57,625 nt of DNA, taken from positions 1 to 57,625 of IMG/VR virus record IMGVR_UViG_3300034062_003011. One strand, written 5' to 3'. Shown here piece after piece: positions 22,549-57,625 of the stretch. The DNA is from a virus. A program made the translations under genes and the position numbers. The notes beneath the pieces are model-generated. The model was not told the origin of the DNA, did not search any database, and saw only the letters and a program-made list of their open reading frames with translations. Every line of letters starts with the position of its first letter. Positions within the stretch are counted from its first letter, which is position 1.

Positions 22549-23344
22549 TTAGAATGTTTTTAATCTTGTTAAAAGCCCCTTCGTATGTATAATATTCATT
22601 GTATATCTCCTTGATTTTTAACTGCTTATCTACTATCTGTAAATCAGTGTAGCTTTTTAAAATTTCCTCTATTTTACTTGAATCCTTTTCTTCTATTATA
22701 ATTCCATAGTCTTCAAAATTAGCATCAAAGCAACTAATAAATTCATCTGAAATATATACAGGGATGGTTTCGTATTGCATACATTCTGCTATTCTAAAAC
22801 TATTCAATCCATACCCCCTTGGACATAATCCGAATAATGAATGAGAGATTATATCGCAAAATGATTGTATGTCATGCTGCTTATCGGAAATATAAAAATC
22901 CTTATTCTGTATGTTAAATACATTTTCCCTAATTGGATGCGTATGTGTGCCAATAAATGATGCAAATATTGACTTGCTATGATTCCACTCGTATGAATGT
23001 GGCTTACACAATAACGGTATTTCCACCCCCGTCTTTTTGCTCATACTAAAAACCAAGATATCCAAATCTTTAAAATCAGTCATTACCCCGTCATCATATT
23101 GGCAAATAGTCCAATATTTTAAATCTTTAGGCAACTTATCTACATAGTCTTGTAATTGCTTTCTTGCTACAGGATTATTACCATAATTATTATTTACATG
23201 ATATGCTGTCCATTGAATTGGAAGGTAATGCCTTTCAGTGTTTGGGATATGCTCGTGTGAAACCCAATCTTCAAATATAATATCATTTTCCCAAGGATAT
23301 ACTGTATTTATTGTTGGAATAAATTCTTCTGGTATATGTATCAT
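22526..23344 (-). CDS. Exostosin-like (GT47) glycosyltransferase
   Basis: 272 residues. The N-terminal half has FEDWVSHEHIP and YLPIQWTAYHVNNNYG; the second half has the family signature region HSLFGLCPRGYGLNSFRIAECMQYETIPVYISDEF, which is the nucleotide-sugar binding end of exostosin-type GT-B enzymes, then a helical tail. Exostosin-like proteins occur in bacterial capsule and LPS loci. It overlaps the FkbM gene by 4 bases (ATGA), so the two are co-translated. Donor sugar cannot be read from sequence. Confidence 0.75.
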   Translation of the reverse strand: MIHIPEEFIPTINTVYPWENDIIFEDWVSHEHIPNTERHYLPIQWTAYHVNNNYGNNPVARKQLQDYVDKLPKDLKYWTICQYDDGVMTDFKDLDILVFSMSKKTGVEIPLLCKPHSYEWNHSKSIFASFIGTHTHPIRENVFNIQNKDFYISDKQHDIQSFCDIISHSLFGLCPRGYGLNSFRIAECMQYETIPVYISDEFISCFDANFEDYGIIIEEKDSSKIEEILKSYTDLQIVDKQLKIKEIYNEYYTYEGAFNKIKNILNANSSNP

Positions 23345-23982
23345 ATTTTGTATTTACGGATATATAATGCGTCTGTCCATGTTTCAGCTACCCACTCCCC
23401 CGTTTCAACTCTTTCAAATCCTCTTTGTAGCATGAAATAATCAAGCTCCTCTACCAACATGCACCCTTTATACGTTTCTTTCATATTCACCTCAAGCAAT
23501 GCGTAGTCAATATTTTTAATCAAATCGCCCATCCCCTCTATTGCTAAATGCTCCGCACCTTGTAAGTCTACATTCAGAAAATTAATAGTAGATACATCTA
23601 CATCTTTTAGCAATGTATCTACTCTTTGTGTTTTCATAGCTATTTGTTCTACATAATGCACTTCAGGATGAATTAATGCATGAACTCCTAATTCCAAAAT
23701 TGATGAACTTTGGCTTTCATTATTTGAAACATTAAATACAACCTCATCGCCATCCACATTGCTCAAGCAAACATTATATGCTGTTTGTTGTGGGTATGGT
23801 TTTATATTATGCTGGAGGTCTAAATAAACTTTAGGTATAGCCTCTACCCATATAACTTTCCCCTTGCAATAATTGTCATAGGCATCTCTTTCCTGTCCGG
23901 TAGAAGCCCCTAAATGCAATACCCCCCTTATATCCAATTTGTGTTTGTCGACTAGATAGTCAAATGATATCATCATATACAT
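23341..23982 (-). CDS. FkbM-family methyltransferase
   Basis: 213 residues. HLGASTGQERDAYD near 22 is the SAM-binding loop, VIWVEAIPKVY the strand-2 acidic residue, INFLNVDLQGAEHLAIEGMGDLI the FkbM motif with its NVDLQGAE core, and LLEVNMKETYKG follows. Such enzymes O-methylate sugars and are common in glycan clusters. It overlaps the epimerase gene by 10 bases and the next gene by 4. Confidence 0.85.
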   Translation of the reverse strand: MYMMISFDYLVDKHKLDIRGVLHLGASTGQERDAYDNYCKGKVIWVEAIPKVYLDLQHNIKPYPQQTAYNVCLSNVDGDEVVFNVSNNESQSSSILELGVHALIHPEVHYVEQIAMKTQRVDTLLKDVDVSTINFLNVDLQGAEHLAIEGMGDLIKNIDYALLEVNMKETYKGCMLVEELDYFMLQRGFERVETGEWVAETWTDALYIRKYKI

Positions 23983-24980
23983 GCGTTTTTATTAACTTGA
24001 TTATCTATCCAAACATATAAATTTTCTAATCCTTTTTTTAAAGGCTTTGATGGTCGCCACCCTAAAACTTCTTGTATTAACTCATTATTTGAATTTCTTC
24101 CTCTTACGCCTATTGCGTTAGATTCTATATTTTTAATTTTTATATTTTTACCCGAAATGCTAATTACTAATTTAGCTAAATCGTTAATAGATATAATTTC
24201 ATCAGAACCAATATTAACTGGTTTTCTATAATCAGATTCAAGCAATCTCATTACACCTTCTATACATTCATCAATGTATAAAAAAGACCTTGTTTGCAAT
24301 CCATCTCCCCATATTTCTATTTCCCCTCCATCCTCTGTTTCGCATACCTTTCTAGTAACAGCAGCTGGAGCCTTTTCTTTGCCTCCAACCCAAGTACCCT
24401 CTTCACCAAATATATTATGGAATCTAGCTATTCTTATATCAAGACCATAATTTCTATAAAAAGAATCAAATAGTATTTCGCTAAATATCTTTTCCCATCC
24501 ATACGGGCTATCTGGGTTAGCTGGAAAACAATCGCTTTCTTTTAAACCTTTGTTATCTGTAGACTCTTGTATTTCTTGTGGGTATGCGCAAGCGCTTGAT
24601 GAAAAGAATAATTTTTTAACGCCACATTTGGAAGCATAAAATGCAATATTTAAATTTACCAATGCAGAATTATGCATAACATTTGCATCATTATCTCCTG
24701 AAAAAATATACCCTGCGCCCCCCATATCCGCCGCCATTTGAATTACTAAATCAAATGCATTATCCTTATCTAATAAATTATGTTGTTTTGGCGACCATAA
24801 AACCCTGCTAACTAATTGCTCATCTCTTAAATCCCCAACGATAAATTCATCTGCTTTTGTTTCAGAATGTTCTGGGTATTTCAAATCTACGCCTCTAACC
24901 CAATAACCATCTTTTTTTAATCTTTTAACCATATGGCTACCTATAAATCCACCTGCGCCACAAACTAAAGCTGTTTTCAT
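23973..24980 (-). CDS. gme: GDP-mannose 3,5-epimerase
   Basis: 335 residues, a short-chain dehydrogenase-fold epimerase. NAD loop GAGGFIG at 8-14, then a sequence strikingly like plant GME: AADMGGAGYIFSGDN, FFSSSACAYP (C131), SPYGWEK (Y160, K164), RFHNIFGEEGTWVGGKEKAPAA (K203), EIWGDGLQTRSFLYIDECIEG, VNIGSDEIISIND and GVRGRNSNN. The Cys and Lys that act as acid/base in C5 and C3 epimerisation are present. The product would be GDP-L-galactose or GDP-L-gulose from GDP-D-mannose, a donor for one of the neighbouring transferases. Alternatives (other GDP-sugar epimerases) fit the motifs less well. Confidence 0.88.
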   Translation of the reverse strand: MKTALVCGAGGFIGSHMVKRLKKDGYWVRGVDLKYPEHSETKADEFIVGDLRDEQLVSRVLWSPKQHNLLDKDNAFDLVIQMAADMGGAGYIFSGDNDANVMHNSALVNLNIAFYASKCGVKKLFFSSSACAYPQEIQESTDNKGLKESDCFPANPDSPYGWEKIFSEILFDSFYRNYGLDIRIARFHNIFGEEGTWVGGKEKAPAAVTRKVCETEDGGEIEIWGDGLQTRSFLYIDECIEGVMRLLESDYRKPVNIGSDEIISINDLAKLVISISGKNIKIKNIESNAIGVRGRNSNNELIQEVLGWRPSKPLKKGLENLYVWIDNQVNKNACI

Positions 24981-24982
24981 AA

Positions 24983-25582
24983 TTATTTATTTAATTTTAA
25001 ATACCATTGTTTCTTTAACCACCATAAACCCCATTCATTTAAAGTATCTTCAGAATGTAACACAATTTCTGGATTAAAACTTTGCTCGTTAACATCATCT
25101 CTTACAAATGCTTTCGGAACAATCTCATCAACCGCTTTTCTTACATCAGAAGCATTGTAATCATGCCCTGCTAATATACTTTCGTCTTTTACTTTTGGAT
25201 ACCAAGCTTTTATTTCTTTTTTAGTTTCCTCGTAAGTATGTGACGAATCAATAAAGCAAAAATCAAGGTAACCATCATTGAATAATTTTACTGATTCTAA
25301 ACTTGCAAACGGAACTACTTCAATAAACTCTCCTAAACCGCTTTTTATAATATTTTGGTAAATAGTCTTCATTTGCAGATAACCACCATAATCCATGTTA
25401 TCTACCATATACAACTTAAATTTCTTGCCAAGTCTATTTATTTCTTGTGCTAGGTAAATGGCACTATCGCCATCAGCAACACCAACTTCACAAACTTTGC
25501 AATCATCTGGAAGCTCTTTTGCAATCCTTTGATAGAAATGCTGAAAATCAAACATAGTTAATTGAATCATAATTTTATCCAT
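24983..25582 (-). CDS. Class I SAM methyltransferase (Methyltransf_24 type)
   Basis: 199 residues. KVCEVGVADGDSAIYLAQ near 29-46 is the SAM loop, LYMVDNMDYGGY the strand-2 region, and YLDFCFIDSSHTYEETKKEIKAWYPKVKDESILAGHDYNASDVRKAV the characteristic C-terminal half of this family, with FIDSSHTY and AGHDY motifs. These enzymes methylate sugars or small molecules in cell-surface glycan loci. It overlaps the GT11 gene by 16 bases and lies 2 bases before the epimerase gene. Confidence 0.8.
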   Translation of the reverse strand: MDKIMIQLTMFDFQHFYQRIAKELPDDCKVCEVGVADGDSAIYLAQEINRLGKKFKLYMVDNMDYGGYLQMKTIYQNIIKSGLGEFIEVVPFASLESVKLFNDGYLDFCFIDSSHTYEETKKEIKAWYPKVKDESILAGHDYNASDVRKAVDEIVPKAFVRDDVNEQSFNPEIVLHSEDTLNEWGLWWLKKQWYLKLNK

Positions 25583-26304
25583 TCAGGGTTTACAATATCG
25601 CTTGTATCTAATCCGCACCATCCTGCACTAAACCAAAATTGCGGGAATATTACTTTTTTATTTTCGTTTCTATTTAAATAAGCTCCCCACCATGAAAATG
25701 TTGAAGGCGAACATATTTGATGCTCACACCAACTCATTTCTATTAAATCACTTTGTTCATCTGTGTTTCCGGAATACTCGCAATCATTTCTATGCTTAAA
25801 CGCATCCATACACCAAGCAATGTCATCAGAAAAAAACTTGAATTTATAATTAGGAAACATAGCCATAGCTTTTTCATACCATTCAATAGTAACTTCAGGA
25901 TGCTTTTCTCTTAAAGTAACATAATCTCCTCGTCTAACATGAACTGCAACATATCCCTCTTTCTTTACCCAGTCAAATTTTAACAAATATAAAATCTCAC
26001 TTCTGTATTCATCAAAGTATTTTGCAGTTTGCCTGTAACCTTCAACTATTATATTTTTATCTCTCCAAGATTCTTCAAAAGGCAACTCTTCATACGAGTG
26101 CTTCCCTTCCCATAATTGTATTTTTTCAATATCAGGATTGTAACTAGAGTTTACTAAATGTAAACAATAAATAGGATTCCATTTTGGATTGCTGCTTACA
26201 TTTGGAACAGTAAAATCTAAATCATGCTTTAAAGCGTAAGCCATTGCTGTAGCCGCTTCAAAAAGCCAATTACCCATTCTCCCTGCGTTTGTAAAAGATA
26301 CCAT
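25567..26304 (-). CDS. GT11 fucosyltransferase-like glycosyltransferase
   Basis: 245 residues, within the family's range. GRMGNWLFEAATAMAYA at 8-24 (GDP-sugar site start), VHVRRGDYV at 121-129 (the HxRRGDY motif that holds the GDP-sugar), FFSDDIAWC near 157, and SPSTFSWWGAYLNRN near 198. Family members transfer L-fucose from GDP-L-fucose, usually alpha-1,2. No GDP-fucose synthase (Fcl) is encoded here, but a GDP-mannose 3,5-epimerase is two genes away; GDP-L-galactose is the 6-hydroxy analogue of GDP-L-fucose, so L-galactose transfer is a reasonable guess. Confidence 0.82.
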   Translation of the reverse strand: MVSFTNAGRMGNWLFEAATAMAYALKHDLDFTVPNVSSNPKWNPIYCLHLVNSSYNPDIEKIQLWEGKHSYEELPFEESWRDKNIIVEGYRQTAKYFDEYRSEILYLLKFDWVKKEGYVAVHVRRGDYVTLREKHPEVTIEWYEKAMAMFPNYKFKFFSDDIAWCMDAFKHRNDCEYSGNTDEQSDLIEMSWCEHQICSPSTFSWWGAYLNRNENKKVIFPQFWFSAGWCGLDTSDIVNPEWIKL

Positions 26305-26321
26305 AAGTAAAATTAATTAAT

Positions 26322-27017
26322 TTAATTTAATTTCCTAATCTTTTCTATTAATATTTCTCTAAAATCACCTGTTCTTTGAACATTATTTATATAGTGAGAT
26401 TGATTGTGAACTAAATGCTCATACCTTAACCCGTGAACAATATGAATATACTTACCTGACATTAGCCAATTATAATTTTGGAATAAGCTATCACTTGTTA
26501 CGGGGTCTGTTGTAGCATCCCAAACATCACAATAAGTATTTTTGTTTACAAAATAATTCATACAATTTAAACAAGTTTCAAACATTGGCTTATCTATATA
26601 TTCTTTTAAGTTGTCTTTACTGACTATTAAATCTGAATACTCTGTATAATTAAATGTTGGTTTTGCCCAATCTGGAGCTAAAATCATATCTTCCGCCCAT
26701 TCTTGTTCAAAAATCTTATCAAGATATAGTGTATCTATTTGATTATCAGAGTCTAATATAATGCAATAGTTGGTAGGGGATAAGCTAATAGAAACATACT
26801 TATTAGCATAACAATCTCTATTAGTCAAATTTCTATATAATTTAACTTTAGATAATTTATCGCACTCTTCTTTTAATTTGTTATAAATATGCTCATCGCT
26901 TGCATCATCTACGATAACAATAGCTTCTACTCTATCATCATTGTAAACTTCCTTAAAACTATTTAATGTCATTTCTACTCTATTCCAAGTAGGTATGCAG
27001 ATTGATAATGTTCTCAT
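26322..27017 (-). CDS. GT2-family glycosyltransferase
   Basis: 231 residues. LSICIPTWNRVEMTLNSFKEV start and IVIVDDASDE (nucleotide-binding Asp pair), CIILDSDNQIDT (DxD at about 88-90) and DSLFQNYNWLM in the acceptor half with HIVHGLRYEHLVHNQSHY near the end. Standard GT-A fold family 2 order. It overlaps the GT25 gene upstream by 4 bases (ATGA). Donor and acceptor unknown. Confidence 0.85.
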   Translation of the reverse strand: MRTLSICIPTWNRVEMTLNSFKEVYNDDRVEAIVIVDDASDEHIYNKLKEECDKLSKVKLYRNLTNRDCYANKYVSISLSPTNYCIILDSDNQIDTLYLDKIFEQEWAEDMILAPDWAKPTFNYTEYSDLIVSKDNLKEYIDKPMFETCLNCMNYFVNKNTYCDVWDATTDPVTSDSLFQNYNWLMSGKYIHIVHGLRYEHLVHNQSHYINNVQRTGDFREILIEKIRKLN

Positions 27018-49402: not shown

Positions 49403-50101
49403 TTATATTGGTTTAAAGGCGTTTCTAGCGGTTTCTAATTCGTTCTGATACTTATTACCAATCTTGGGAGAAGCTGTCTTATTTTGCTTTAAAATGGCAT
49501 CTACGACCCATCTCTTGATAGTTAGGTAATCTGATTTTGTTTTATACGATTTTTCTATTTTATACGCTGCCAAGTATTCATAAAAATCAGTTACATGCTT
49601 TTCGCCAAATTCTGCAACAAGCTGTAAATGTTCTTTTTGTGTCAATAAAATATTTTCTTTAAATTTTACTTTTTTTTCTGCTTTAACCATATCCTTATCC
49701 ATATCCTTAACCATATCCATATCCATAGACCCTTCCGAGGGGCTTATAAGGGGCTTATCTTTAGATATTCTTAAATTATATTTTTCAAGCAATATGATTA
49801 CAGAGTTATGCGCTCTATTGTCTGAATTTAAACCAGATGGGTACTGAAATTCTAAAAAAGATGGTATAAACCACTTATTGCCTTTATCAATAATTATAAT
49901 TTTTTCATCAAAACTTTTAATTGCTTCTTTTATATCTATTTTTTCACCAATTCTTATTGCAGCAACTTCCATATCAACTTGCCAAATACCTGCATGGTCA
50001 CAGTCATCACAGATATATAACCAAAGGAGCTTATAAGCCCCTTGTAAGCCCCTTATAAAGGGCTTCTTCCACTTTTCAGTGTCGGTAAATCTTTTAGCCA
50101 T
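49403..50101 (-). CDS. Replication initiator-like protein carrying DNA repeats
   Basis: 232 residues. N-terminal winged-helix-like region (KWKKPFIRGLQGAYKLLWLYICDDCDHAGIWQVDMEVAAIRIGEKIDIKE begins here; kept under review), a middle with a repeated Asp-Met-Val-Lys-Asp pattern (about 125-142), and a DnaD-like helical C-terminus (LQLVAEFGEKHVTDFYEYLAAY, YLTIKRWVVDAILKQ). Proteins of this shape lie just before the replicative helicase in many Bacteroidetes phages and are taken as initiators or helicase loaders. Five copies of an 11-base motif lie inside the gene. Confidence 0.6.
   Translation of the reverse strand: MAKRFTDTEKWKKPFIRGLQGAYKLLWLYICDDCDHAGIWQVDMEVAAIRIGEKIDIKEAIKSFDEKIIIIDKGNKWFIPSFLEFQYPSGLNSDNRAHNSVIILLEKYNLRISKDKPLISPSEGSMDMDMVKDMDKDMVKAEKKVKFKENILLTQKEHLQLVAEFGEKHVTDFYEYLAAYKIEKSYKTKSDYLTIKRWVVDAILKQNKTASPKIGNKYQNELETARNAFKPI
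49739..49760 (-). repeat. Iteron-like motif, downstream pair
   Basis: Two head-to-tail copies of GGGGCTTATAA/GGGGCTTATCT (plus strand 49739-49749 and 49750-49760). They are read in different codon phases, so the repetition is in DNA, not in protein. Candidate initiator-binding sites. Confidence 0.6.
50026..50067 (-). repeat. Iteron-like motif, upstream cluster
   Basis: TTATAAGCCCC (50031-50041), TTGTAAGCCCC (50042-50052) and the inverted TTATAAAGGGCTT (from 50053), preceded by GGAGC that makes the first copy a near palindrome. The first two are reverse-oriented copies of the motif at 49739. Confidence 0.6.
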
Positions 50102-50111
50102 CTTTTTGTAA

Positions 50112-50309
50112 TTAATCGTTAATAAAATCAGTGTCTAACACTTTGTTAATTGTAGCCAAATTTTTATCAGAAAGGTTCATTATCCTTTGAATAAAAATTG
50201 AATAAAGTGTTGGATATGGTATTTCTGTTTTCCTTGAAAGCCAAGCTAATGGTCGTTCTTCCTGTTCAAGATAGAGAAGAATCTCGTCTTTGACATTTGA
50301 GTTTTTCAT
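50112..50309 (-). CDS. Xre/Cro-like helix-turn-helix protein
   Basis: 65 residues. LAWLSRKTEIPYPTLYSIFIQRIMNLSDKNLATINKVL is a Xre-type helix-turn-helix at about residues 22-59. It is the first gene of the long minus-strand operon that runs through initiator, helicase, SSB and GroES, and it faces the plus-strand early promoter across a 121-base gap, the classical position of a phage transcription switch. It may repress either promoter. No integrase was found, so lysogeny is not implied. Confidence 0.75.
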   Translation of the reverse strand: MKNSNVKDEILLYLEQEERPLAWLSRKTEIPYPTLYSIFIQRIMNLSDKNLATINKVLDTDFIND

Positions 50310-50329
50310 AAATAATTTTGATTGAAAGG

Positions 50330-50359
50330 CAAAGTAATGAACTTTATTTTTAATTGCAA
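50330..50359 (-). promoter_or_regulatory. Promoter of the repressor-replication operon
   Basis: Minus strand TTG (50357-50359), 19-base spacer, TTACTTTG (50330-50337; one mismatch to TAnnTTTG), 21 bases before the repressor ATG. It mirrors the divergent box at 50406. Confidence 0.5.
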
Positions 50360-50405
50360 AATTTATTTTTTGAAAAATATTTTTTATTTATTTAATTATA
50401 TTAAT

Positions 50406-50413
50406 TACTTTTG
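50406..50413 (+). promoter_or_regulatory. Early promoter -7 box (plus strand)
   Basis: TACTTTTG matches TAnnTTTG and lies 17 bases before the ATG at 50431. With the reverse copy at 50330 (CAAAGTAAT facing ATTACTTTTG) it makes a symmetric divergent promoter pair. Confidence 0.5.
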
Positions 50414-50430
50414 CATATAACACATAACTT

Positions 50431-50820
50431 ATGAAATACTCATCTAGTTTTACGCACGATTTAAACTTTGGAGAAAAAGCCGAAGATTGGGTAAATGAAT
50501 TGTTTTCTAATGGTAAACTTATAGAAGTAAAAAATGATAGAATGATACATAAGACAGGAAATTTATTTATTGAATACGAGTCAAGAGATAAACCTAGTGG
50601 ACTAGCAACCACCACTGCAGACTATTGGATTTACAGAATGAGCGAACTTGATTCGTCATTAATATTTCCAACTAAAGCCTTAAAGGATGTTTGTAGGGTT
50701 TATTTTAAACAAAACTTATTCCTTAAAAATGGAGGTGATAATAATACTTCCAAAGGATTTTTAATACCATTAACAAGATTACTAAACGATATAGCAAATA
50801 ACAAACAAAATGGCATATAG
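50431..50820 (+). CDS. PD-(D/E)XK-like nuclease
   Basis: 129 residues. NFGEKAEDWVNELF (helix with the first Glu), KLIEVKNDRMIHKTGNLFIEYESRDKPSGLATTTADYWIY: the E-V-K and T-G-N-x-(F)-I-E-Y-E strand pair followed by the SG-(I/L)-x-T-T-x-A-D-Y-W segment is the pattern of small phage PD-(D/E)XK endonucleases. It may process recombination or packaging intermediates, or degrade host DNA. First plus-strand early gene; overlaps the HNH gene by 11 bases. Confidence 0.7.
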   Translation: MKYSSSFTHDLNFGEKAEDWVNELFSNGKLIEVKNDRMIHKTGNLFIEYESRDKPSGLATTTADYWIYRMSELDSSLIFPTKALKDVCRVYFKQNLFLKNGGDNNTSKGFLIPLTRLLNDIANNKQNGI

Positions 50821-51319
50821 CACAATAATAGTTAAGAAAAAACAACTAAAATGTGGTTGTTATGATTATAATTTTAGCAAGAGCAGGTGTAAAAAACACG
50901 CAACGCTTGAGGATACGGCTAATAGAATTATAAAACATAGGCACGAAAATATAAAAGAAGATAAAGAGCAATTATGGGATTGGTTTAAGGAAAGAAGAAA
51001 AGAAATGAAGGGTGTATGTTCTAATTGCAATAATCCATCATCAAAAAAAGATGATGAAAAGTTTCATTATAGCATAGCACATATATTGCCAAAAAGATTA
51101 TTCCCTTCAGTAGCCACGCATCCAGACAATTGGGTTGAGCTTTGTTTTTGGGGTAATAGTTGCCATACTAATTTTGATAATAGTGTTATTGACCTTATAG
51201 ATATGAATTGCTTTGATGAAATAATAGAAAAATTTATAAGGATATATCCAAATGTTGCAGAAGAAGAAAAAAGAAAAATACCACAAATATTAATTGAATA
51301 CTATAACCAAAACAAATAA
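50810..51319 (+). CDS. HNH-type nuclease with zinc motif
   Basis: 169 residues. CGCYDY...CKKH near the N-terminus, CSNCNNP near 73 (CxxC), then FHYSIAHILPKRLFPSVATHPDNWVELCFWGNSCHTNFD: the S-I-A-H-I-(L/x)-P start, an Asn-Trp, a Cys and a C-H-x-x-F-D end are those of HNH nucleases with a structural zinc. Unlike the homing endonucleases it has no NUMOD motifs and sits in an early operon next to another nuclease, so a recombination or host-attack role is more likely. It ends in the tail YNQNK shared with two following genes. Confidence 0.7.
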   Translation: MAYSTIIVKKKQLKCGCYDYNFSKSRCKKHATLEDTANRIIKHRHENIKEDKEQLWDWFKERRKEMKGVCSNCNNPSSKKDDEKFHYSIAHILPKRLFPSVATHPDNWVELCFWGNSCHTNFDNSVIDLIDMNCFDEIIEKFIRIYPNVAEEEKRKIPQILIEYYNQNK

Positions 51320-51328
51320 CCTATGAAA
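51303..51328 (+). repeat. Gene-boundary repeat, copy 1
   Basis: 26 bases identical to 51531-51556, covering the last codons and stop of one gene and the start of the next (ATAACCAAAACAAATAACC then TATGAAA). A shortened copy (16 bases) ends the gene at 51987. Confidence 0.8.
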
Positions 51329-51547
51329 CAATTAGTATATAAAGATGGTAAACCAATGCGAAAAGTTAAAATAAAAGATTTAGAAGAATTGTATAAGCCA
51401 ATATTTTGCATAAATAATAAGTTGTTTTACTTTGATATTATTAAAGCTGAAGATGCTCTTTTTTCAAGGAGATATGGTTATAGAGGCAAAATAATATTTG
51501 GATATTCAATACTATTTTATATTAAAAATAATAACCAAAACAAATAA
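51323..51547 (+). CDS. Hypothetical protein, 74 residues
   Basis: Basic protein (KDGKPMRKVKIKDLEELYKP) with a hydrophobic C-terminal strand (IIFGYSILFYIKNN). Start and stop are both inside the duplicated 26-base boundary repeat, so the gene is flanked by direct repeats, as if it had been inserted or amplified as a cassette. Not recognised; no motif points to an activity. Confidence 0.5.
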   Translation: MKQLVYKDGKPMRKVKIKDLEELYKPIFCINNKLFYFDIIKAEDALFSRRYGYRGKIIFGYSILFYIKNNNQNK

Positions 51548-51556
51548 CCTATGAAA
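51531..51556 (+). repeat. Gene-boundary repeat, copy 2
   Basis: Second perfect copy of the 26-base element at 51303, again containing the stop of one gene and the ATG (51551) of the next. Confidence 0.8.
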
Positions 51557-51793
51557 ACAGCAATGCAACTAATGTTAGAAGATTTAGAATTAAGATATAA
51601 AGTACTATCTAATGCAGAAATGCTACAAGCGTGTGGTGCAATAGAAGGAACTATTGACTATGCTAAATCTTTAATTATAAAAGAAAAAGAGCAGATAGTA
51701 AAAGCATTTAATGATGGGCATCATGCGGATGTAGGACATATAGATAAAGCATGGGAGTACTACAACCAAACCTATAACAAACCAATATTATGA
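51551..51793 (+). CDS. Small helical phage protein (paralogue 1)
   Basis: 80 residues, helical: MQLMLEDLELRYKVL at the start, EKEQIVKAFNDGHHADVGHIDKAWEYYNQTYN at the end. The E-K-E-Q-I helix and the A-x-x-Y-Y-N-x-T-Y/F end are shared with the next gene and with many small Bacteroidetes phage proteins of unknown function. It overlaps the next gene by 4 bases (ATGA). Confidence 0.6.
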   Translation: MKTAMQLMLEDLELRYKVLSNAEMLQACGAIEGTIDYAKSLIIKEKEQIVKAFNDGHHADVGHIDKAWEYYNQTYNKPIL

Positions 51794-51987
51794 AAACAAT
51801 AATGATGCAATTTTTAGATGAATTAAAAAAAGATGGTTATAATATACCATTAGAACATTACAATTCTATGCTTGAAATAGAAAAAGAGCAGATAATGGAT
51901 GCAGCGAAATCTTGTAATTATATTGGTGGTGCAACAGATATAGAAGCAGAAGAATATTATAACCAAACCTATAACCAAAACAAATAA
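51790..51987 (+). CDS. Small helical phage protein (paralogue 2)
   Basis: 65 residues. MQFLDELKKDGYNIPLEHYNSMLEIEKEQIMDAAKSC and AEEYYNQTYNQNK show it is a diverged duplicate of the preceding protein. The last six residues come from the same DNA element that ends two upstream genes. Last gene of the early plus-strand unit; followed by a hairpin. Function unknown. Confidence 0.6.
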   Translation: MKTIMMQFLDELKKDGYNIPLEHYNSMLEIEKEQIMDAAKSCNYIGGATDIEAEEYYNQTYNQNK

Positions 51988-51991
51988 AAAA

Positions 51992-52009
51992 CCCTCCTAA
52001 AAAGGAGGG
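51992..52009. terminator. Bidirectional terminator hairpin
   Basis: CCCTCCT (51992-51998), AAAA loop, AGGAGGG (52003-52009). On the minus strand it is followed by TTTTTTATTTG, on the plus strand by no T-run. It therefore mainly ends the minus-strand unit that stops at 52077, and folds in both transcripts. Confidence 0.75.
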
Positions 52010-52076
52010 CTTCAACTAAAAAATCAATCAAAAAAACACAGAACTTTGTAAAAGTAGTATTTTTTTATATATTTTA

Positions 52077-52397
52077 TTACAAATTTTCAGATTTCCAAAT
52101 AATTAAATCTAGCCCTTTTAAGCCCTTTGGAGGCGTTTTTTGGTTTTCAACTGGTATTTGTTCCAATTTGGAACTAACCTCTGATTTTGGGCTGTTTTTG
52201 TCATAAGGAGGCATATTTTTAAATGGTGCGCCTCTTTTAGCTAAAACATTAGGGACGCCATATGTAAAATCAATACTTTTATACCCATCTAAAAAATAAT
52301 TTACCACCGCTTGAGGTGATGCCAAGTTTTGTTCTTTTTGGATTAATTCTAACTTTTCCAAGTCAAATCTTACTCCAATTGGTTTGCTTTTTGCCAT
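52077..52397 (-). CDS. Putative small DNA-binding protein
   Basis: 106 residues. The first 45 residues (KPIGVRFDLEKLELIQKEQNLASPQAVVNYFLDGYKS) fit the strand-helix-helix pattern of ribbon-helix-helix proteins (IGVRFD strand, two helices). The rest is Pro/Lys-rich and probably disordered. It lies 3 bases after an 88-residue gene under a triple-operator promoter, so autoregulation is possible. RHH call tentative. Confidence 0.5.
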   Translation of the reverse strand: MAKSKPIGVRFDLEKLELIQKEQNLASPQAVVNYFLDGYKSIDFTYGVPNVLAKRGAPFKNMPPYDKNSPKSEVSSKLEQIPVENQKTPPKGLKGLDLIIWKSENL

Positions 52398-52400
52398 AAA

Positions 52401-52667
52401 TTAATAAGTATTTACGAAAATGGGAGTTTGTTCGCCAACATAGGCACAAAATGTGTTGAATTCAAGAAACTCCCAAGCATCTTCTTCTGAAAGCTCTTTA
52501 TCCTCTTCTCTTAAAAGTTCAACCATAATTTCCTTTGAATAAACCAATTGCCCATTGTCAGTTAATCCTAAAATAGCCTTATCATAGCCATCAGGATTTT
52601 TTTGAGATAAATCTGGTTTAAGAGCTAAACATTCCGCTGCTGTTTGTAAAATTAATTCTAAATCCAT
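52401..52667 (-). CDS. Conserved phage hypothetical protein
   Basis: 88 residues. AILGLTDNGQLVYSKEIMVELLREEDKELSEEDAWEFLEFNTFCAYVG is a pattern I know from small proteins in many phages (GLTDDGR-x-VYS, then EEDA-x-E-(W/F), then FNT); no function is established. Very acidic. Directly controlled by the region with three TGTAGCTACA sites. Confidence 0.6.
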   Translation of the reverse strand: MDLELILQTAAECLALKPDLSQKNPDGYDKAILGLTDNGQLVYSKEIMVELLREEDKELSEEDAWEFLEFNTFCAYVGEQTPIFVNTY

Positions 52668-52691
52668 AGTGTTTTTTTTAAATTTTTAAAT

Positions 52692-52772
52692 TGTAGCTAC
52701 AAAGTTAATATAATTTTTGAATTGTAGCTACAAAATTAACATAATTTTTTTTGAAATGTAGCTACAAAATTA
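52692..52772 (-). promoter_or_regulatory. Promoter with three tandem palindromic operators
   Basis: Three copies of the perfect palindrome TGTAGCTACA at 52692-52701, 52723-52732 and 52757-52766, each overlapping CAAAGTTA or CAAAATTA, that is a minus-strand -7 box (TAACTTTG/TAATTTTG) at 52700, 52731 and 52765. The copies are 31 and 34 bases apart, about three helical turns. The proximal box lies 33 bases before the ATG at 52667. A dimeric repressor binding the palindromes would block the boxes directly. Confidence 0.65.
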
Positions 52773-53090
52773 ACTTAATACCTACATCCTTACCAATACC
52801 ATAACACCCCACATATAGCACCATATAGATAGGCTAGCACATACATAGTATACCCCATTACCCTAGGTGATAAGTGCATGGTTAATCCGCTCACTACCTT
52901 ACCACCGCCACATAGGAAACCCAATACCATACTGCTTTGCATGACACCCCGACCCTCAATCATTACTACGCCATATAAACCGAATCCGAAAACCAAAACC
53001 CGACCCCCCGTACCTTGATTTGCTTGAGTTCCCCTTTTGGTTGACCCGCCCCGTTTCTGTAGCGTTACCCCCCCTATCTCCAAGTGTTCT
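52773..53090. other. C-rich, gene-poor tract with G-runs on the minus strand
   Basis: About 320 bases clearly richer in G+C than the rest and strongly skewed: many CC and CCC on the plus strand, few G. There are runs of six C (53004-53009) and seven C (53068-53074), so the minus strand has G-runs near each other that could fold. A 97-residue minus-strand frame is open across it, but its Gly- and Val-heavy composition is what a G-rich strand gives by chance. I see no tRNA or known RNA. Confidence 0.5.
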
Positions 53091-53100
53091 GGAAAATTTT

Positions 53101-53762
53101 TTCGCTAAAGCGAATGTTTATAAGGGTTTGGCGGATTTGCGATGAAAATATCCACCATAAAGTGCATTATTTGACACTAATGAGTGCATAATGCGTCATA
53201 AAATGCACATTCTGATATGCTTTGTGCTTTATAAGGCACTTTATCGCTCAATATTGAGCCGCTTATCGCTCATTTACGGCTCATTTTGATTGATATATGA
53301 ATATTTATTGATTGAGTAAAATTACTCACTCCATTGAGTAAAGTAATAACTTGACAACAGGAAGGGGTGTTGTCAACTAATAGCTTGACTTTATAATTTA
53401 GGTACAACAAGATTTTATAATATCAAAACTTGCAGAGTTTACATTTTTTGCTATTAGGGTAGTATTATTACTACTTTGCGCCCATTTATATTCATTTGCA
53501 CCTATTTTGTAACATTTTTACCTTTTATATGTTACAAGATATAACCGAATTACCCCTTACTTTGTCACATATTTATATAAATTAGTGACACTAATTCGGA
53601 TATTGTCCGAGTTTCACTTCCGAATTTGTCAAGTTTTTAGTATCAAAAACTAGACATATATTGCCAATTTATAAACTATTGCATGAATTTTTCAGAATAT
53701 TCATGCAGATAAGAAACAAAGTTCCCGTTTTGGTAACAAAAGTTTCCCTATTAGGCAACAAA
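53101..53762. repeat. Dense array of paired inverted and direct repeats
   Basis: About 660 bases with no gene and a repeat pair nearly every 50 bases. Palindromes/hairpins: TTCGCT/AGCGAA (53101-53114), GCTCAATATTGAGC (53246-53259), GAGTAA/TTACTC (53314-53327), TTGACAACA/TGTTGTCAA (53351-53376), GTAGTA/TACTAC (53459-53474), AGTTTTT/AAAAACT (53632-53651), TGCATGAAT/ATTCATGCA (53680-53707). Pairs offset by exactly 22: AGTGCAT (53161, 53183), TTATCGCTCA (53241, 53263), TGAGCCG/CGGCTCA (53255, 53277), TTGATTGA (53286, 53308), ATTGAGTAAA (53311, 53333), TTGTAACAT/ATGTTACAA (53507, 53529), TGTCAC/GTGACA (53563, 53585), AACAAA (53735, 53757). Function unknown: operators, origin or structured RNA. Confidence 0.8.
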
Positions 53763-53802
53763 ATTAATTTAAAAATAGTTTTTTAATTTAAAATAATTAA
53801 CT

Positions 53803-53810
53803 TAACTTTG
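53803..53810 (+). promoter_or_regulatory. Promoter -7 box of the right plus-strand operon
   Basis: TAACTTTG, identical to the box at 3112, lies 16 bases before the ATG at 53827 and at the right edge of the repeat array. No TTG at the expected -33 place, suggesting help from a factor bound in the array. Confidence 0.5.
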
Positions 53811-53826
53811 TTAAAAATTATCAAAA

Positions 53827-54024
53827 ATGGCAAGACACATTAACCCAGATTCAGTTTCTAGTAAAGTTTCTACGCTAGAAGTGAATGAAATTATTGAATT
53901 TACTAACCCATATAAATCTATTGCTGTAATGGTTTCAAATCTAAAAAGAAAAAAAGAACACAAAGACAAAATCTTTAAGATAAAAGTCATTGAAAACACA
54001 ACACAAGTAATAAGAGTTAGATAG
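53827..54024 (+). CDS. Hypothetical early protein, 65 residues
   Basis: Basic protein: HINPDSVSSKVSTLEVNEIIEFTNPYKSIAVMVSNLKRKKEHKD, ending in a beta strand with TTQVIRVR. The order (N-terminal strand, NP-x-K/S turn, Lys-rich helix, final strand ending in an R-V-R-type motif) resembles small DNA-binding-like proteins common as first early genes in Bacteroidetes phages. First gene after the repeat array. Function unknown. Confidence 0.55.
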   Translation: MARHINPDSVSSKVSTLEVNEIIEFTNPYKSIAVMVSNLKRKKEHKDKIFKIKVIENTTQVIRVR

Positions 54025-54145
54025 GCTTCAACTAAAAATCAAAATCCCCTAATTGGTACGCAATTTCTACACTTAAGCTCTTTCATAAAAAAGAAAGACA
54101 ATTAATGATGAGATTGCTGCCAATTTTTTAAAACACACAACTGCT

Positions 54146-54514
54146 ATGCACATCCAAGTAATCAATTATCAAAGAACATTTAATTTAGGAAATTACGCTT
54201 CAGAAAAGATTGGCGTAGAGGTGGCTATTAACGCCGGAGAAGATGCCAAAGAAGCCCTAGAAGCTGCTAAATCATTAGTTGAAGAATATCATAAAGAAAA
54301 TGTAGCAAAACTAAAAGATTTAGGTTATTTCTATGAAGACCAAATTGAAGTAGAAACTATTCCAACCCAATCAAAGAAAACATTAACTGAAAAAACTAAA
54401 GAATTTATAGATGCTTGTAAAACAAGAGCAGAGCTAAAGTCTTGGGAGCTGATGTCAAAAAGCAATCCGGAATTACTAGAACATTATAACAAAAAACTAA
54501 AAAGCATAAAATAA
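54146..54514 (+). CDS. Hypothetical protein, possibly recombination-associated
   Basis: 122 residues. Residues 1-55 are a beta-alpha unit (IQVINYQRTFNLGNYASEKIGVEVAINAGEDAKEALEAAKSLVEEYHKE), followed by a Glu/Lys linker and a C-terminal helix pair (LTEKTKEFIDACKTRAELKSWELMSKSNPEL). It shares one base with the YqaJ-like exonuclease gene, so the two proteins are probably made together and may act together. No family named. Confidence 0.5.
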   Translation: MHIQVINYQRTFNLGNYASEKIGVEVAINAGEDAKEALEAAKSLVEEYHKENVAKLKDLGYFYEDQIEVETIPTQSKKTLTEKTKEFIDACKTRAELKSWELMSKSNPELLEHYNKKLKSIK

Positions 54515-55233
54515 TGGAATTTTTTAACACACTAATCCATTGCAGTAGCATTGGTAAATTATTAACCGAACCTATATCAAAGGCAGATAAAGAATCTGGC
54601 GAACTTTCTAAAACAGCAAAGACGCATTTGATAGAAGTGTATGCTAATAAAAAATACGGATTTAAAAAAGAGATTGATAACAAATACACAGACAAGGGTA
54701 ATACAGTAGAGCCTGAAGCAATAGATATGTTATCACTTACAATAAAAAGACCGTTAAGTAAAAATACTGAAGTATTTAGTAATGATTTTTTTATAGGTAC
54801 TCCTGATGTTATTGACGAAATAGTATATGATACAAAGTCAAGCTGGGATTGGATTACATTCCTTTCAAACATACCTGATAAATTAGATTCAACATACGAG
54901 GCGCAGGTAAATGGATATATGGATTTATTAGGATTAGATAAAGCTTGCGTTGCTTATTGCTTGATTGACACTCCGGAGCATATTAGAAATTCTGCAAAGT
55001 ATTCTTTATTAAGAAAAATGGATGTTGTTAGCGAAGAGTCACCAGAGTTTATAAAAGAATGGAACGAGAAAGAAAGAAATATGATATTCTCAAACGCTCC
55101 ATTAGAAGAAAGAATACTTTTATTTCCTGTTTATAGAAATGAAGAATTGATTGAAAAGGCAAAAGCAAAAGTTCTCAAAGCGAGAACATTTTTACAAGAA
55201 CTAGAATACAAGCATTTAAACTTTAATAAATGA
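54514..55233 (+). CDS. YqaJ/RecB-like phage exonuclease
   Basis: 239 residues of PD-(D/E)XK fold. CSSIGKLLTEPIS start, KGNTVEPEAIDMLS (motif with the first Glu), FFIGTPDVIDEIVYDTKSSWDWITF (Asp of GTPD and D-x-K, the catalytic pair) and YEAQVNGYMDLLGLDKACVAYCLI (Gln-x-x-x-Tyr/Met motif). This is the lambda-exo-like group that resects double-stranded ends for single-strand annealing. No annealing protein was recognised; SSB is at 47182. It overlaps the next gene by 4 bases. Confidence 0.8.
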   Translation: MEFFNTLIHCSSIGKLLTEPISKADKESGELSKTAKTHLIEVYANKKYGFKKEIDNKYTDKGNTVEPEAIDMLSLTIKRPLSKNTEVFSNDFFIGTPDVIDEIVYDTKSSWDWITFLSNIPDKLDSTYEAQVNGYMDLLGLDKACVAYCLIDTPEHIRNSAKYSLLRKMDVVSEESPEFIKEWNEKERNMIFSNAPLEERILLFPVYRNEELIEKAKAKVLKARTFLQELEYKHLNFNK

Positions 55234-55628
55234 ACGGAGCAAACATAGTAAGTGCTATTCAGCATCTAAAGATGGCAAAAGAACATTACGATGATTTTAT
55301 TAGACAATACCCTGAATCAAGTGGCGCTAGGTTATTTTTAAGCCATGTAAACAAGATTAATTGGATATTTAAGGATACCATAACCCATCCGCATATAACA
55401 CAATCGGTCAGAGATGGCATAAAGAAGGAGATTTTAAGCGATGTCTTTGCAGTACCCGCCATTAACGAGAAAGTTGCCCTATTGACCCCAGAACAGCGAG
55501 AAATCATAGAGGAAACAATAGACGCTATGCTTGCCGGAGAAGAAGTTGAAATAATAGACACCGGTGGAAAGCCACTTATTGATATAATTGATACAAAAAA
55601 TGAACCAAATATATTAGGAAATCCTTAA
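55230..55628 (+). CDS. Conserved hypothetical protein
   Basis: 132 residues, helical: NIVSAIQHLKMAKEHYDDFIRQYP, LFLSHVNKINWIFKDTITHPHITQSVRDGIKKEILSDVFAVPAINEKVALLTPEQREIIEETIDAMLAGEEVEI in order, with an Asp/Gly-rich C-terminus. Proteins with this layout are frequent in Bacteroidetes phages next to exonuclease genes. No catalytic motif is evident. Confidence 0.55.
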   Translation: MNGANIVSAIQHLKMAKEHYDDFIRQYPESSGARLFLSHVNKINWIFKDTITHPHITQSVRDGIKKEILSDVFAVPAINEKVALLTPEQREIIEETIDAMLAGEEVEIIDTGGKPLIDIIDTKNEPNILGNP

Positions 55629-55637
55629 TTTAGTGGT

Positions 55638-55775
55638 ATGAAAGGGAAATTAAACAAACTAGGAGTTGCGAATAGCCTTTGGAATAATATCAGAGCTAAA
55701 TCAGGTTCAGGTAAAAAGCCAACAAAAGAAATGCTTGAGCAAGAAAAAAAGATTAAAGCAAAAGAAAAAAAGTAA
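55638..55775 (+). CDS. Small Lys-rich phage protein
   Basis: 45 residues from ATG 55638 to TAA 55775: starts MKGKLNKLGVANSLWNNIRA, then KSGSGKKPTKEMLEQEKKIK and a Lys tail. The NLW-x-N-I-x-A and GSGKKPT-x-EML patterns recur in tiny proteins upstream of DUF6321-like genes in related phages, which supports it as a gene. The stop overlaps the next ATG by one base (TAATG). Confidence 0.7.
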   Translation: MKGKLNKLGVANSLWNNIRAKSGSGKKPTKEMLEQEKKIKAKEKK

Positions 55776-56065
55776 TGCGTAAGACACCAGCTTGGACAAG
55801 GGCAGAAGGCAAAAATCCGAAAGGAGGACTGAACGAAAAAGGCAGAGCATCATATAATGCCGAAACCGGAGGTAACCTAAAAGCCCCAGTAAAGTCAGGT
55901 GTCAATCCACGCAGGGTTTCTTTTGCTGCAAGATTTGCCGGAATGAAAGGCGCAATGAAAAAACCAAATGGTGAACCTACAAGGAAAGCATTAGCATTAA
56001 AAGCGTGGGGATTTAGTTCAATTGCACAAGCAAGAATGTTTGCAAATAGACATAAAAAATCTTAA
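55775..56065 (+). CDS. DUF6321-like basic protein
   Basis: 96 residues. AWTRAEGKNPKGGLNEKGRASYNAETGGNLKAPVK and RVSFAARFAGMKGAMKKPNGEPTRKALALKAWGFSS are the family's conserved blocks as I remember them. Very basic with many Gly, suggesting nucleic-acid binding. It is encoded between a tiny Lys-rich protein and a transglycosylase-like protein and shares one base with each. Function not established. Confidence 0.7.
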   Translation: MRKTPAWTRAEGKNPKGGLNEKGRASYNAETGGNLKAPVKSGVNPRRVSFAARFAGMKGAMKKPNGEPTRKALALKAWGFSSIAQARMFANRHKKS

Positions 56066-56778
56066 TGGCAGAGTTAGACGCAATATCAGAAACAATTCAT
56101 AGCGAAAACGAAGGCAATCCAATAATGGATTTTCTTAAAAAAGTATTTAGCGTTACACCTACAGCACCGGTTGCAAAGAAAGGACTTGTAATGCCAAGAG
56201 ATTACGAATTAAAAGATAATAGAAAAGTAAACGCCACAACAGGTAAAGCAATAAACCCAAACAGGGATTTAGTAAGCGGAAAGTATCCTTCAAAAGATAT
56301 ATACGGAATAGTAAAAGCAGCTAAAAGATACAATTTAGACCCATACGATTTATTATCAGTATCACTTCAGGAAACAGGGTTAAATAGAAAAGGAGAAGGA
56401 TTAGGACAAATAAAAATGTCAGATAATGAGATAATAAACGACATCCCAACAAAAATGGAAACAGAGGAAGAAGGCGTTAGTGACGAATACGATATGTTTG
56501 CGAGAGCTTATATGTCCAAGATGAAATATGCTGATAAACTAGGAATAAAAGACCCAGCATTAAGAATGCAAACGTACAACGGGTTGGGAAAAATTACACC
56601 TAATACAGAAAAGGGATATCACGGTTTTGCAATGCAAAGCATATACGGAGTTCCATTACCAAAAGAAGGTATTGACATGAGGAAGAATCCATTATACGGT
56701 AAAAGGGTTTTGGATTTGAGAGATAATGTTTTAAGAAAGGACGAACAATTAGCCAATTACATAAAGAATATCAGATAA
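56065..56778 (+). CDS. Lytic transglycosylase-like protein
   Basis: 237 residues. After a disordered N-terminus (1-75), IYGIVKAAKRYNLDPYDLLSVSLQETGLNRKGEGLGQIKMSD (catalytic Glu of the S/x-Q-E-T/S-G motif near residue 110, and the G-x-G-Q-I motif) and MQTYNGLGKI near 170 match the lysozyme-like SLT fold. It lacks a signal peptide. It could be a virion-associated wall enzyme or a second lysis protein; its early-type operon makes the former less clear. Confidence 0.7.
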   Translation: MAELDAISETIHSENEGNPIMDFLKKVFSVTPTAPVAKKGLVMPRDYELKDNRKVNATTGKAINPNRDLVSGKYPSKDIYGIVKAAKRYNLDPYDLLSVSLQETGLNRKGEGLGQIKMSDNEIINDIPTKMETEEEGVSDEYDMFARAYMSKMKYADKLGIKDPALRMQTYNGLGKITPNTEKGYHGFAMQSIYGVPLPKEGIDMRKNPLYGKRVLDLRDNVLRKDEQLANYIKNIR

Positions 56779-56802
56779 AAGTGTTCAATTTCTTATGCGA
56801 AG

Positions 56803-56827
56803 CCTCCCCTAAAAAGGAGGTTTTTTG
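56803..56827 (+). terminator. Terminator of the right plus-strand operon
   Basis: CCTCC (56803-56807) pairs with GGAGG (56816-56820) around CCTAAAAA, followed by TTTTTTG. It lies about 25 bases after the transglycosylase-like gene. Confidence 0.75.
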
Positions 56828-56853
56828 TTTCCTAATAGAAAACTTTGTAAAGC

Positions 56854-56902
56854 GTAACGTTACACTAATTATTTGGAAAATGTTATAACATGATGTATCT
56901 TG
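56854..56902 (+). promoter_or_regulatory. Promoter and operator of the RHH-RusA unit
   Basis: TTG (56873-56875), 20-base spacer, TATCTTG (56896-56902; one base short of TAnnTTTG). The 12-base perfect palindrome ATGTTATAACAT (56880-56891) lies inside the spacer, and a second palindrome GTAACGTTAC (56854-56863) lies just upstream. A repressor on the first site would cover the promoter. Confidence 0.55.
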
Positions 56903-56919
56903 CATCAAAATGATTCACT

Positions 56920-57072
56920 ATGAAGCGTACAACAATTTATTTAACCCCAGAAGTTCACGAGAAACTTGTAAAATTGGCTGAAAGAAAAAAATGGTCGGTA
57001 ACAAAGACAGTAGAATTTATTCTGTTAAAAGCTGTAAAAGATAGAACTAATGCAAAAGAAAGTAATACTTAA
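56920..57072 (+). CDS. Ribbon-helix-helix DNA-binding protein
   Basis: 50 residues from ATG 56920 to TAA 57072: a strand (KRTTIYLTPEVHEKLVKLAE begins the fold), a basic turn RKKWSVTK, second helix TVEFILLKAVKD. This is the Arc/MetJ/CopG layout: dimer-forming N-terminal strand followed by two helices. Palindromic sites directly upstream make it a likely autorepressor. It overlaps the RusA-like gene by 23 bases in another frame. Confidence 0.75.
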   Translation: MKRTTIYLTPEVHEKLVKLAERKKWSVTKTVEFILLKAVKDRTNAKESNT

Positions 57073-57511
57073 CATAACCCCTCAAACCCACGTTAGGGCA
57101 ACTCAAGGTGATTCCATATTCTTTAGAATCCCAAGAGAAAAACTACGCCCCTCCGGTTTAAGCAGACTACTCCGATTAGAAAAATACAACAAGTACAAAG
57201 TTGACCTTTTAGCCGAAGCCAAAGCCAAACAATTTATCCTTCCCCCAATAGGAGCTTCCATAACTTTTTTTATTCCAGTACCACCTTCTTGGTCAAAGAA
57301 AAAAAAGAAATTACATCACGGCAGATTCCACCAATCCAAACCTGACATAGACAACTTAACCAAAGCCGCATTAGATTCTTTAATGGTAGAAGATAAACAA
57401 ATTGCGCACTTGGAAATACAGAAAAGATGGGTTGATTTTGAATCAGGATGGATTGAGATTTTACACAAAGACTACGAAGAAGTTCTTGCTCTCCCCTCCC
57501 CCAAAGAATAG
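57050..57511 (+). CDS. RusA-family Holliday junction resolvase
   Basis: 153 residues. SITFFIPVPPSWSKKKKKLHHGRFHQSKPDIDNLTKAALDSLMVEDKQIAHLEIQKRW begins in the mid-protein: the P-x-P-P-S-W/x strand, the K-P-D-x-D-N-(L/x)-x-K motif with catalytic Asp residues, and the D-x-Q-(I/V) motif are hallmarks of RusA. It has a longer N-terminus than E. coli RusA (about 60 residues before the fold), which may be a specific extension or a too-early start. It cuts four-way junctions before packaging. Confidence 0.88.
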   Translation: MQKKVILNITPQTHVRATQGDSIFFRIPREKLRPSGLSRLLRLEKYNKYKVDLLAEAKAKQFILPPIGASITFFIPVPPSWSKKKKKLHHGRFHQSKPDIDNLTKAALDSLMVEDKQIAHLEIQKRWVDFESGWIEILHKDYEEVLALPSPKE

Positions 57512-57625
57512 ACTCTTGCCAAAGACTCTGCGTCTATGAGTATTATATACACACATACTTTATTTAACATAATATTTATTATAAGATTAAGTTAATTTAG
57601 ATTATTCTTGCTAACCTAAAATTTT
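57512..57625. other. Right-end non-coding stretch
   Basis: 114 bases, AT-rich, with GACTCT repeated at 57511 and again about 15 bases later and a weak ATAATA/TTAT inverted repeat. No promoter or gene seen. If the molecule is circular the last four codons and stop of the homing endonuclease at 1-642 lie here (57611-57625, minus strand). Confidence 0.4.

Follow-up and report, generated by a model that had tools for sequence, protein, structure and literature searches.

In poxviruses, inverted junctions are extruded as cruciforms and the A22 resolvase cuts these into hairpins, as described in the available part of PMC8956199. The locus studied here resembles the vaccinia telomeres described in that part in having long inverted terminal repeats and AT-rich palindromes at the tips, some with imperfect centres, and further resembles poxviruses in having a conserved motif near the tip and a viral gene for a Holliday-junction resolvase. 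The vaccinia elements used for comparison are the inverted terminal repeat (ITR), the concatemer resolution site and the A22 resolvase. Unlike poxviruses, however, our locus belongs to a tailed phage, a RusA-type enzyme is encoded inside each repeat, the inner edge of the repeat is G/T-rich, and the closed ends are putative. For the rudivirus SIRV2, the accessible text of PMC3157427 proposes that a viral resolvase (Hjr) resolves inverted junctions into hairpin ends. That virus is archaeal and rod-shaped and its resolvase is related to archaeal Hje/Hjc, whereas here we deal with a tailed phage and with RusA.

Hairpin telomeres on a linear replicon are also described for N15-type phages (TelN) in the available sections of three reports (PMC12624138, PMC12042878, PMC10612081). 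Our phages differ from these in the lack of ResT/TelK-type matches (0/21 records) and of Phage_integrase matches (0/15), in their long terminal inverted repeats (TIRs), and in their tips, which lie next to rusA. N15 virions have cos ends and are not known to have kilobase TIRs. To our knowledge, hairpin telomeres of tailed phages have been tied to TelN-like enzymes and to plasmid prophages that lack terminal repeats of kilobase size.

Caudoviricetes contigs from gut metagenomes are reported to include some with inverted terminal repeats (90 groups, 5%), among which the authors suspect artefacts; no telomere, resolvase or tract is described in the part of that report available (PMC9610469). Borgs are linear and have inverted terminal repeats of 1.4–2.7 kb, but unlike our phages they are archaeal elements of roughly 0.66–0.92 Mb, with tandem repeats throughout and no viral proteins detected, as far as the accessible text goes (PMC9605863). 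The literature searched, in which most subscription papers were missing, showed no tailed phage that combines long TIRs and palindromic tips with RusA.

Phage type and relatives

The window, by which we mean the whole stretch of DNA analysed (57,625 nucleotides, IMG/VR virus record IMGVR_UViG_3300034062_003011), comes from a tailed phage (Caudoviricetes). Genes for TerL, the portal and the major capsid protein were found (phrog_6681, phrog_6547 and PF17236 SU10_MCP, the last over its cut-off), and the combination of TerL, portal and an SU10-like capsid protein identifies the phage type. Relatives were collected by two neighbour-protein scans of viral contigs, which gave 29 relatives and the best 80 of 135 relatives of the gene that we call rep. 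The genes next to the region under study on its inner side are:

52,077–52,397, minus strand: 106-aa gene (rep; the name implies no function), the bait for the 80 relatives
52,401–52,667, minus strand: 88-aa gene read inward from the repeat array (phrog_13182, function unknown)

By TerL, the nearest isolates were found among 87 GenBank phage records, all below 60% identity (29% in the best 15 of the 87). These TerL relatives are nearly all Flavobacterium and Cellulophaga phages, the nearest being the Elemoviruses of Flavobacterium and related Cellulophaga phages, in whose records terL lies at many positions and on both strands among the matches listed. RusA matched 37 GenBank phage records, all remotely and none covering 80%; no Flavobacterium or Cellulophaga phage was among the 37. 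A DNA search of GenBank phages gave no match. The scan of genome contigs with RusA returned two contigs from metagenome-assembled genomes (MAGs), L253 and L254, assigned to Sphingobacteriia and Bacteroidetes, in which the RusA relatives (67% and 64%) lie near contig ends. This binning hints at Bacteroidota hosts, and Bacteroidota is probably the host group of the clade.

Elsewhere in the window, inspection by eye showed a 1,540-aa protein with long GTSGTSG-like repeats (9,170–13,792), probably a tail fibre, and genes resembling those for glycosyltransferases and sugar-nucleotide enzymes (3,130–6,488 and 22,003–27,017), many for a phage.

Inner edge of the terminal inverted repeat

The region under study lies inside a 1.16-kb gap between the inward minus-strand genes (52,077–52,667) and the outward genes that begin at 53,827. 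The features of this part of the window are:

52,681–52,779, minus strand: array of three units with TGTAGCTACA in common; it contains three TAnnTTTG words (promoter- or operator-like) and lies just inside the inner edge, on flank 1
52,784–53,100, minus strand: G/T-rich tract, innermost part of the TIR, with its outer limit set by composition and the highest |G−C| of the window
52,784–57,625, no strand assigned: one arm of the TIR, about 4,846 bp in all, with the palindrome centre just past 57,629, beyond the record
53,827–54,024, plus strand: 65-aa gene (p65), the first outward gene in the long-TIR type
54,514–55,233, plus strand: exonuclease-family gene (exo) inside the TIR (phrog_5715, 2e-45)

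Comparison of the window with L002 showed identity over 4,704 bases, from 57,487 to 52,784, after which the two run into different flanks. The same arm, in the same orientation, was found on a second flank in L148, L150 and L166 (the contigs of L023, L026 and L002), where rusA, exo and p65 are joined to that flank. Because the arms of the window and L002 split in this manner and the same arm recurs on the second flank, the tract can be placed, at the level of sequence comparison, as the innermost ~300 bp of a long TIR. Its inner edge is 52,784, the last base common to both arm copies and 11 bases from the start given in the original prediction. A single-arm invertible segment was also considered, and was dropped because L148, L150 and L166 show the second flank with the arm in unchanged orientation.

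The ends of 15 contigs of 61–70 kb were compared, the palindromic contig G027 being left out. Twelve of them (G001, G002, G005, G006, G009, G021–G026 and G032) carry an inverted end copy of 76–1,730 b at 94–100% identity. The copies are exact in G009 (first and last 1,295 bases) and G024 (1,730 bases), while in G001, G002 and G032 the inverted overlap is 123–127 b, as expected of an assembly graph with k=127. Two relatives of 66.7 kb have ends inverted over 123 and 127 bases, and the shared piece matches 52,776–52,877 of the window. In this comparison no second copy of the tract was found in G004, G010 or G011; G004 ends in the flank-2 sequence, which is found next to the repeat in G005 and G006. 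The repeat is about 1.3–2.2 kb long in most relatives measured, about 4.1 kb in G025 and ~4.8 kb in the group of the window, and in G009 the p65 and exo genes belong to the unique region, not to the repeat.

The repeat array that had been noted beside the tract is real, with three units of ~31–34 bp. The junction is no more than ~40 b away from the first unit of the array in the window, G001, G002, G005, G006, G009, G021, G023, G024, G026 and G032. It falls inside the outermost unit in G009, G002 and G001, and before that unit by 6–7 bases in G024 and G032, by about 13 in G005 and G006, and by some 25–36 in G023 and G026. No such array was present in the stretches of G022 and G025 read at the inner edge. 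At the right end of G022 (L240), repeats of a TCGTAACAA-like word were seen by eye in place of the TGTAGCTACA array.

An assembly graph of k=127 is expected to give overlaps of ~127 b and to break at repeat edges; we infer this k from the overlaps of 127 b and 63 b. In L016, L010, L019, L004 and L025 the first base of the contig coincides with the inner edge or is a few bases from it. When the first TAGCTAC was taken as the array, 36 of the 76 contigs selected by rep and having the array ended 28–167 b beyond its first unit (24 of them at 102–134 b); two others ended at 402–466 b, 24 at 0.5–2 kb and 14 at 2–5 kb. The first 6 kb of the remaining 4 of the 80 rep loci contained no array word. This clustering is as expected if a k=127 graph breaks at the repeat edge. 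Many contigs of relatives stop either at the tract or 2.1–2.7 kb past the exonuclease gene, and the latter point matches the end of the window record.

Distant relatives of a 304-aa gene of flank 2 were seen in L157–L163 and L165, where terL is nearby and the array word is absent from the locus; they are perhaps a lineage with other genome ends.

Composition of the tract

The original prediction described a C-rich stretch whose skew and G+C content set it apart from the surrounding DNA, and this was borne out. The plus strand of 52,773–53,090 contains 90 A, 109 C, 40 G and 79 T, which makes a GC content of 46.9%; the median of the window is 33%. The C-minus-G value of this stretch, 69, equals the maximum of the window (318-bp windows in 10-bp steps over 57.6 kb). 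The runs of six and seven C are present at 53,004–53,009 and 53,068–53,074.

From the relatives, 37 tracts with enough sequence were chosen, of which 20 were left after dereplication; L031 is identical to the window. On the rep-sense strand, all 20 tracts, that of the window included, contain 8–16% C and more G than C. The same bias in 20/20 dereplicated tracts indicates that it is not due to chance, and since the tracts also occupy the same place, recent foreign DNA, as had been suggested, was rejected as their source. Ranked by skew within its own locus, the tract was matched or exceeded by 1–8 windows (overlapping or other) in 16 of the 20 loci, and by 13–47 windows in L047, L057, L083 and L097. 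Pairwise identity among the tracts was 0.56; shuffled letters gave 0.52 and the rep gene 0.74. The composition is thus kept across relatives while the sequence is near-random.

The trinucleotide TGG occurs 56 times per kb in the tracts and 14 times per kb in whole loci. Its count of 287, against 252 in dinucleotide shuffles, indicates that the excess comes partly from dinucleotide content, and in the window the TGG count of the tract was equalled by 215 of 11,464 windows. GTG is depleted in the tracts. A depletion of A like that of diversity-generating retroelements was considered only and set aside.

The tract of L023 is a mosaic, which switches from window-like to L022-like sequence near 52,934. 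Positions 52,788–53,161 are identical in the window, L024 and L026, and from about 53,261 outward identity is 44–70%. Patches of low identity also occur elsewhere in the intergenic gap, which suggests that exchange is not confined to the tract.

Upstream of p65, window positions 53,147–53,818 form a mosaic of short conserved blocks whose order and orientation differ among relatives. The block at 53,240–53,283 is inverted in relatives, and the mosaic is present also where p65 sits in the unique region. This mosaic is possibly an origin or operator region.

Outer end of the repeat

The outer end of the arm carries the following features:

56,920–57,072, plus strand: ribbon-helix-helix (Arc-like) gene beside rusA (phrog_582, 1e-4; Pfam RHH models below cut-offs)
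57,050–57,511, plus strand: RusA-family Holliday-junction resolvase, the last gene before the terminus (PF05866, 2.5e-14; phrog_140, 5e-22)
57,530–57,555, plus strand: conserved sub-telomeric motif GCGTCTATGAGTATTATATAYRCACA, recurrent near contig ends
57,615–57,625, plus strand: segment from the left half of an AT-rich telomeric palindrome (CCTAAAATTTTAATT/AATTAAAATTTTAGG) that the end of the record truncates; in L025/L133 and L013/L134 the sequence continues beyond the palindrome centre

RusA was found in 12 of 21 records, always less than 200 b from a contig end and in G009 at both ends, while the 9 records without RusA all stop 29–155 b beyond the array. Among 12 further records, 11 had RusA. 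In ten it lies within ~205 b of an end (in G024 at both ends), and in G027 it occupies the palindrome centre. The twelfth record, G032, has no RusA and stops in the tract. In the scan by RusA alignment, which covered the best 80 of 136 relatives (two contigs appear twice among the 80), the contig end lies between −79 and +180 b from the end of RusA in 74 loci. The tip palindromes are AT-rich and lie about 70–125 b past rusA. The motif GCGTCTATGAGTATTATATAYRCACA is near a contig end in all 17 viral contigs that have it, with 3–99 b remaining beyond; it was not found in genome contigs.

L207, which is G027 (59,908 b), has 15-kb ends that are exact inverted copies, and its locus is perfectly palindromic about the telomere position. 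The true sequence is probably about half as long as the deposited contig.

The available part of PMC9610469 names an identical-strand record as an artefact and warns of such artefacts of assembly and amplification. The palindromic contigs and inverted ends, which are known from assembled contigs alone, are possibly artefacts too, yet they fall at one shared site across many samples. Imperfect centres were found in L191, L196 and, by eye, L254 (the contig from the Bacteroidetes MAG), and their occurrence at the shared site argues against a mirror artefact of assembly. Taken as sequence, these data strongly suggest that the genome is linear with hairpin-type ends, formed via head-to-head joined intermediates.

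We then turn to the enzyme. A TelN/ResT-type resolvase (PF16684) was found in none of 21 of the 33 records, some of which are fragments, with a match in one control genome. As no resolvase of this type was found, RusA is the candidate. Phage_integrase had no match in 15 records and matched in 14 of 14 controls. The type B DNA polymerase PF03175 was likewise not found (0/21 records), though no control matched either. Protein-primed ends as in phi29 are disfavoured because the tips read into their own complement.

According to the accessible text of PMC3485210, Escherichia coli RusA cleaves almost only 5′ of CC, where this is arranged symmetrically around the branch point. In our tips, 17 of 21 half-sites, among them several near-identical ones, have CC at 12–16 nt from the centre; the other 4 have no CC. 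The acidic motif of RusA reads PDLNN instead of PDxDN in 2 of the 14 distinct strings caught by the pattern, and this weakens the RusA model for those phages, G009 (L140:5-460) among them.

Alternative explanations

The main rival for the role of the tract is a replication origin or polar fork barrier in each TIR, acting through R-loops or G-quadruplexes of the G-rich strand between divergent promoters. We consider this unlikely. The strand asymmetry of all 20 dereplicated tracts would agree with it, as would the spacing of G, which is periodic near 6 nt, and the available text of PMC9605863 infers that Borg replication starts in the terminal repeats. The word CTTGCA recurs in the tracts (26 occurrences against 0.6 expected), but it is present in 13 of the 20 and missing from 7. 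For the G-quadruplexes of the original prediction the result is mixed: two-tetrad potential covers 78 bases against 41 in shuffles; three-tetrad structures were rejected, as their potential is below that of shuffles (2.6 against 11.7). R-loops from an inward transcript, proposed at the same time, lost ground. Outside the tract, the word TAnnTTTG, which we take to be the Bacteroidota promoter consensus, points outward in 18/20 and inward in only 3/20, and its scarcity in the inward direction weakens this reading. The window itself has neither an outward nor an inward TAnnTTTG outside the tract. Moreover, along G002, G009 and the window the cumulative skew does not clearly change direction at the tract; it seems to track gene orientation.

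Alternatively, the bias might be a by-product, the tract being a non-coding spacer at the TIR edge that drifts under strand-asymmetric mutation or repeated copying and merely spaces divergent promoters. The near-random sequence from tract to tract fits such a spacer, and so does the arrangement of the promoter words, which lie in the array on one side and point outward on the other in 18/20. We regard it as quite unlikely, however. GC is raised, not lowered, in these AT-rich genomes, the same bias is found in 20/20, and TTGG (145 against 100) and TGGT (138 against 81) exceed their counts in dinucleotide shuffles.

The inverted copies could also stem from circular DNA, either a genome containing a long palindrome internally or head-to-head dimers. 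Long perfect palindromes are usually unstable, and we consider this reading very unlikely as well. Among the 74 loci whose contigs end near RusA, 15 continue beyond the centre: four of them by exactly 63 bases, the length expected at k=127 for a giant palindrome without interruption, and one by 62. The remaining 6 of the 80 loci (best 80 of 136) lie in palindromic contigs, which are perfect palindromes folded just past RusA. In contrast, 59 of the 74 stop without passing the centre, at scattered and not fixed positions, as at a physical end, although a palindrome can also depress coverage. The imperfect centres of L191, L196 and L254 also speak against circular forms.

A fast-evolving small protein or a small RNA is highly improbable. 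The 97-aa frame (52,790–53,083, minus strand, TTG start) is uninterrupted in the window and in identical copies as well as those of 99% identity, and stop-free stretches of the G strand average 66 aa against 55 in shuffles, but the frame was rejected as a gene because it has in-frame stops in L023, L009/L070, L012/L093 and L020, its alignments to other relatives stop at residue 61–66, and it has no PHROGs match. The frame is not conserved, and the absence of a convincing gene, already noted by the original prediction, was upheld. The small RNA suggested there found no backing: no Rfam match was obtained up to E 1 within 50,000–57,000, and average folding was no better than in shuffles (25 shuffles each, n=20; mean z +0.9 for one strand and +0.5 for the other), L064 (z −2.7) being one of the single exceptions. 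A structured RNA was rejected on these two grounds.

Proposed mechanism and significance

The original prediction stands in so far as the DNA element is strand-asymmetric and has no convincing gene; what changes is the meaning, as the element is the inner edge of a TIR. The best explanation combines a TIR, hairpin-type tips, resolution by RusA and a tract that favours recombination, and we give this whole explanation a probability of roughly 0.6. In this model, the palindrome formed by joined ends would be extruded as a cruciform, and RusA, encoded beside each tip and of predicted activity, would cut the cruciform into two hairpin ends. The RusA step is modelled on A22 of poxviruses and on the proposed role of Hjr in rudiviruses. 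At the inner edge, the G/T-rich, little-folding strand of the tract may favour recombinase loading or pairing, as a DNA element dependent on composition. By such exchange the TIR copies would stay identical, and the tract would mark where exchange stops. These events at the inner edge are the weakest step. The tract would act as DNA, neither as RNA nor as protein.

A recombination-prone TIR edge is our best guess for the role of the tract. The kept composition without kept sequence, the TGG enrichment and the mosaic switch in L023 together favour a DNA element that promotes exchange. A cluster of Chi sites shielding the tip was rejected, since, given the polarity of Chi, a Chi-like site here would be in the wrong orientation to protect DNA against entry at the tip. 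So far as composition goes, the tract is compatible with a Chi element or an element preferred by RecA for pairing. TGG repeats are preferred by RecA, as stated in the available part of PMC3763553.

As a tentative statement, which we hold at somewhat less than even odds, these phages would form a tailed-phage clade with linear genomes, whose poxvirus-like hairpin telomeres are made by RusA and not by a protelomerase, and whose TIRs are kept identical via a G/T-rich tract defined by composition, without fixed sequence. If true, this would be a second, resolvase-based phage route to hairpins, convergent with those of poxviruses and rudiviruses, and would offer a bacterial model for concatemer resolution. 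It would account for the contigs that stop at the same two points, and in the tract we would have a rare element that keeps its composition and position, yet hardly its sequence.
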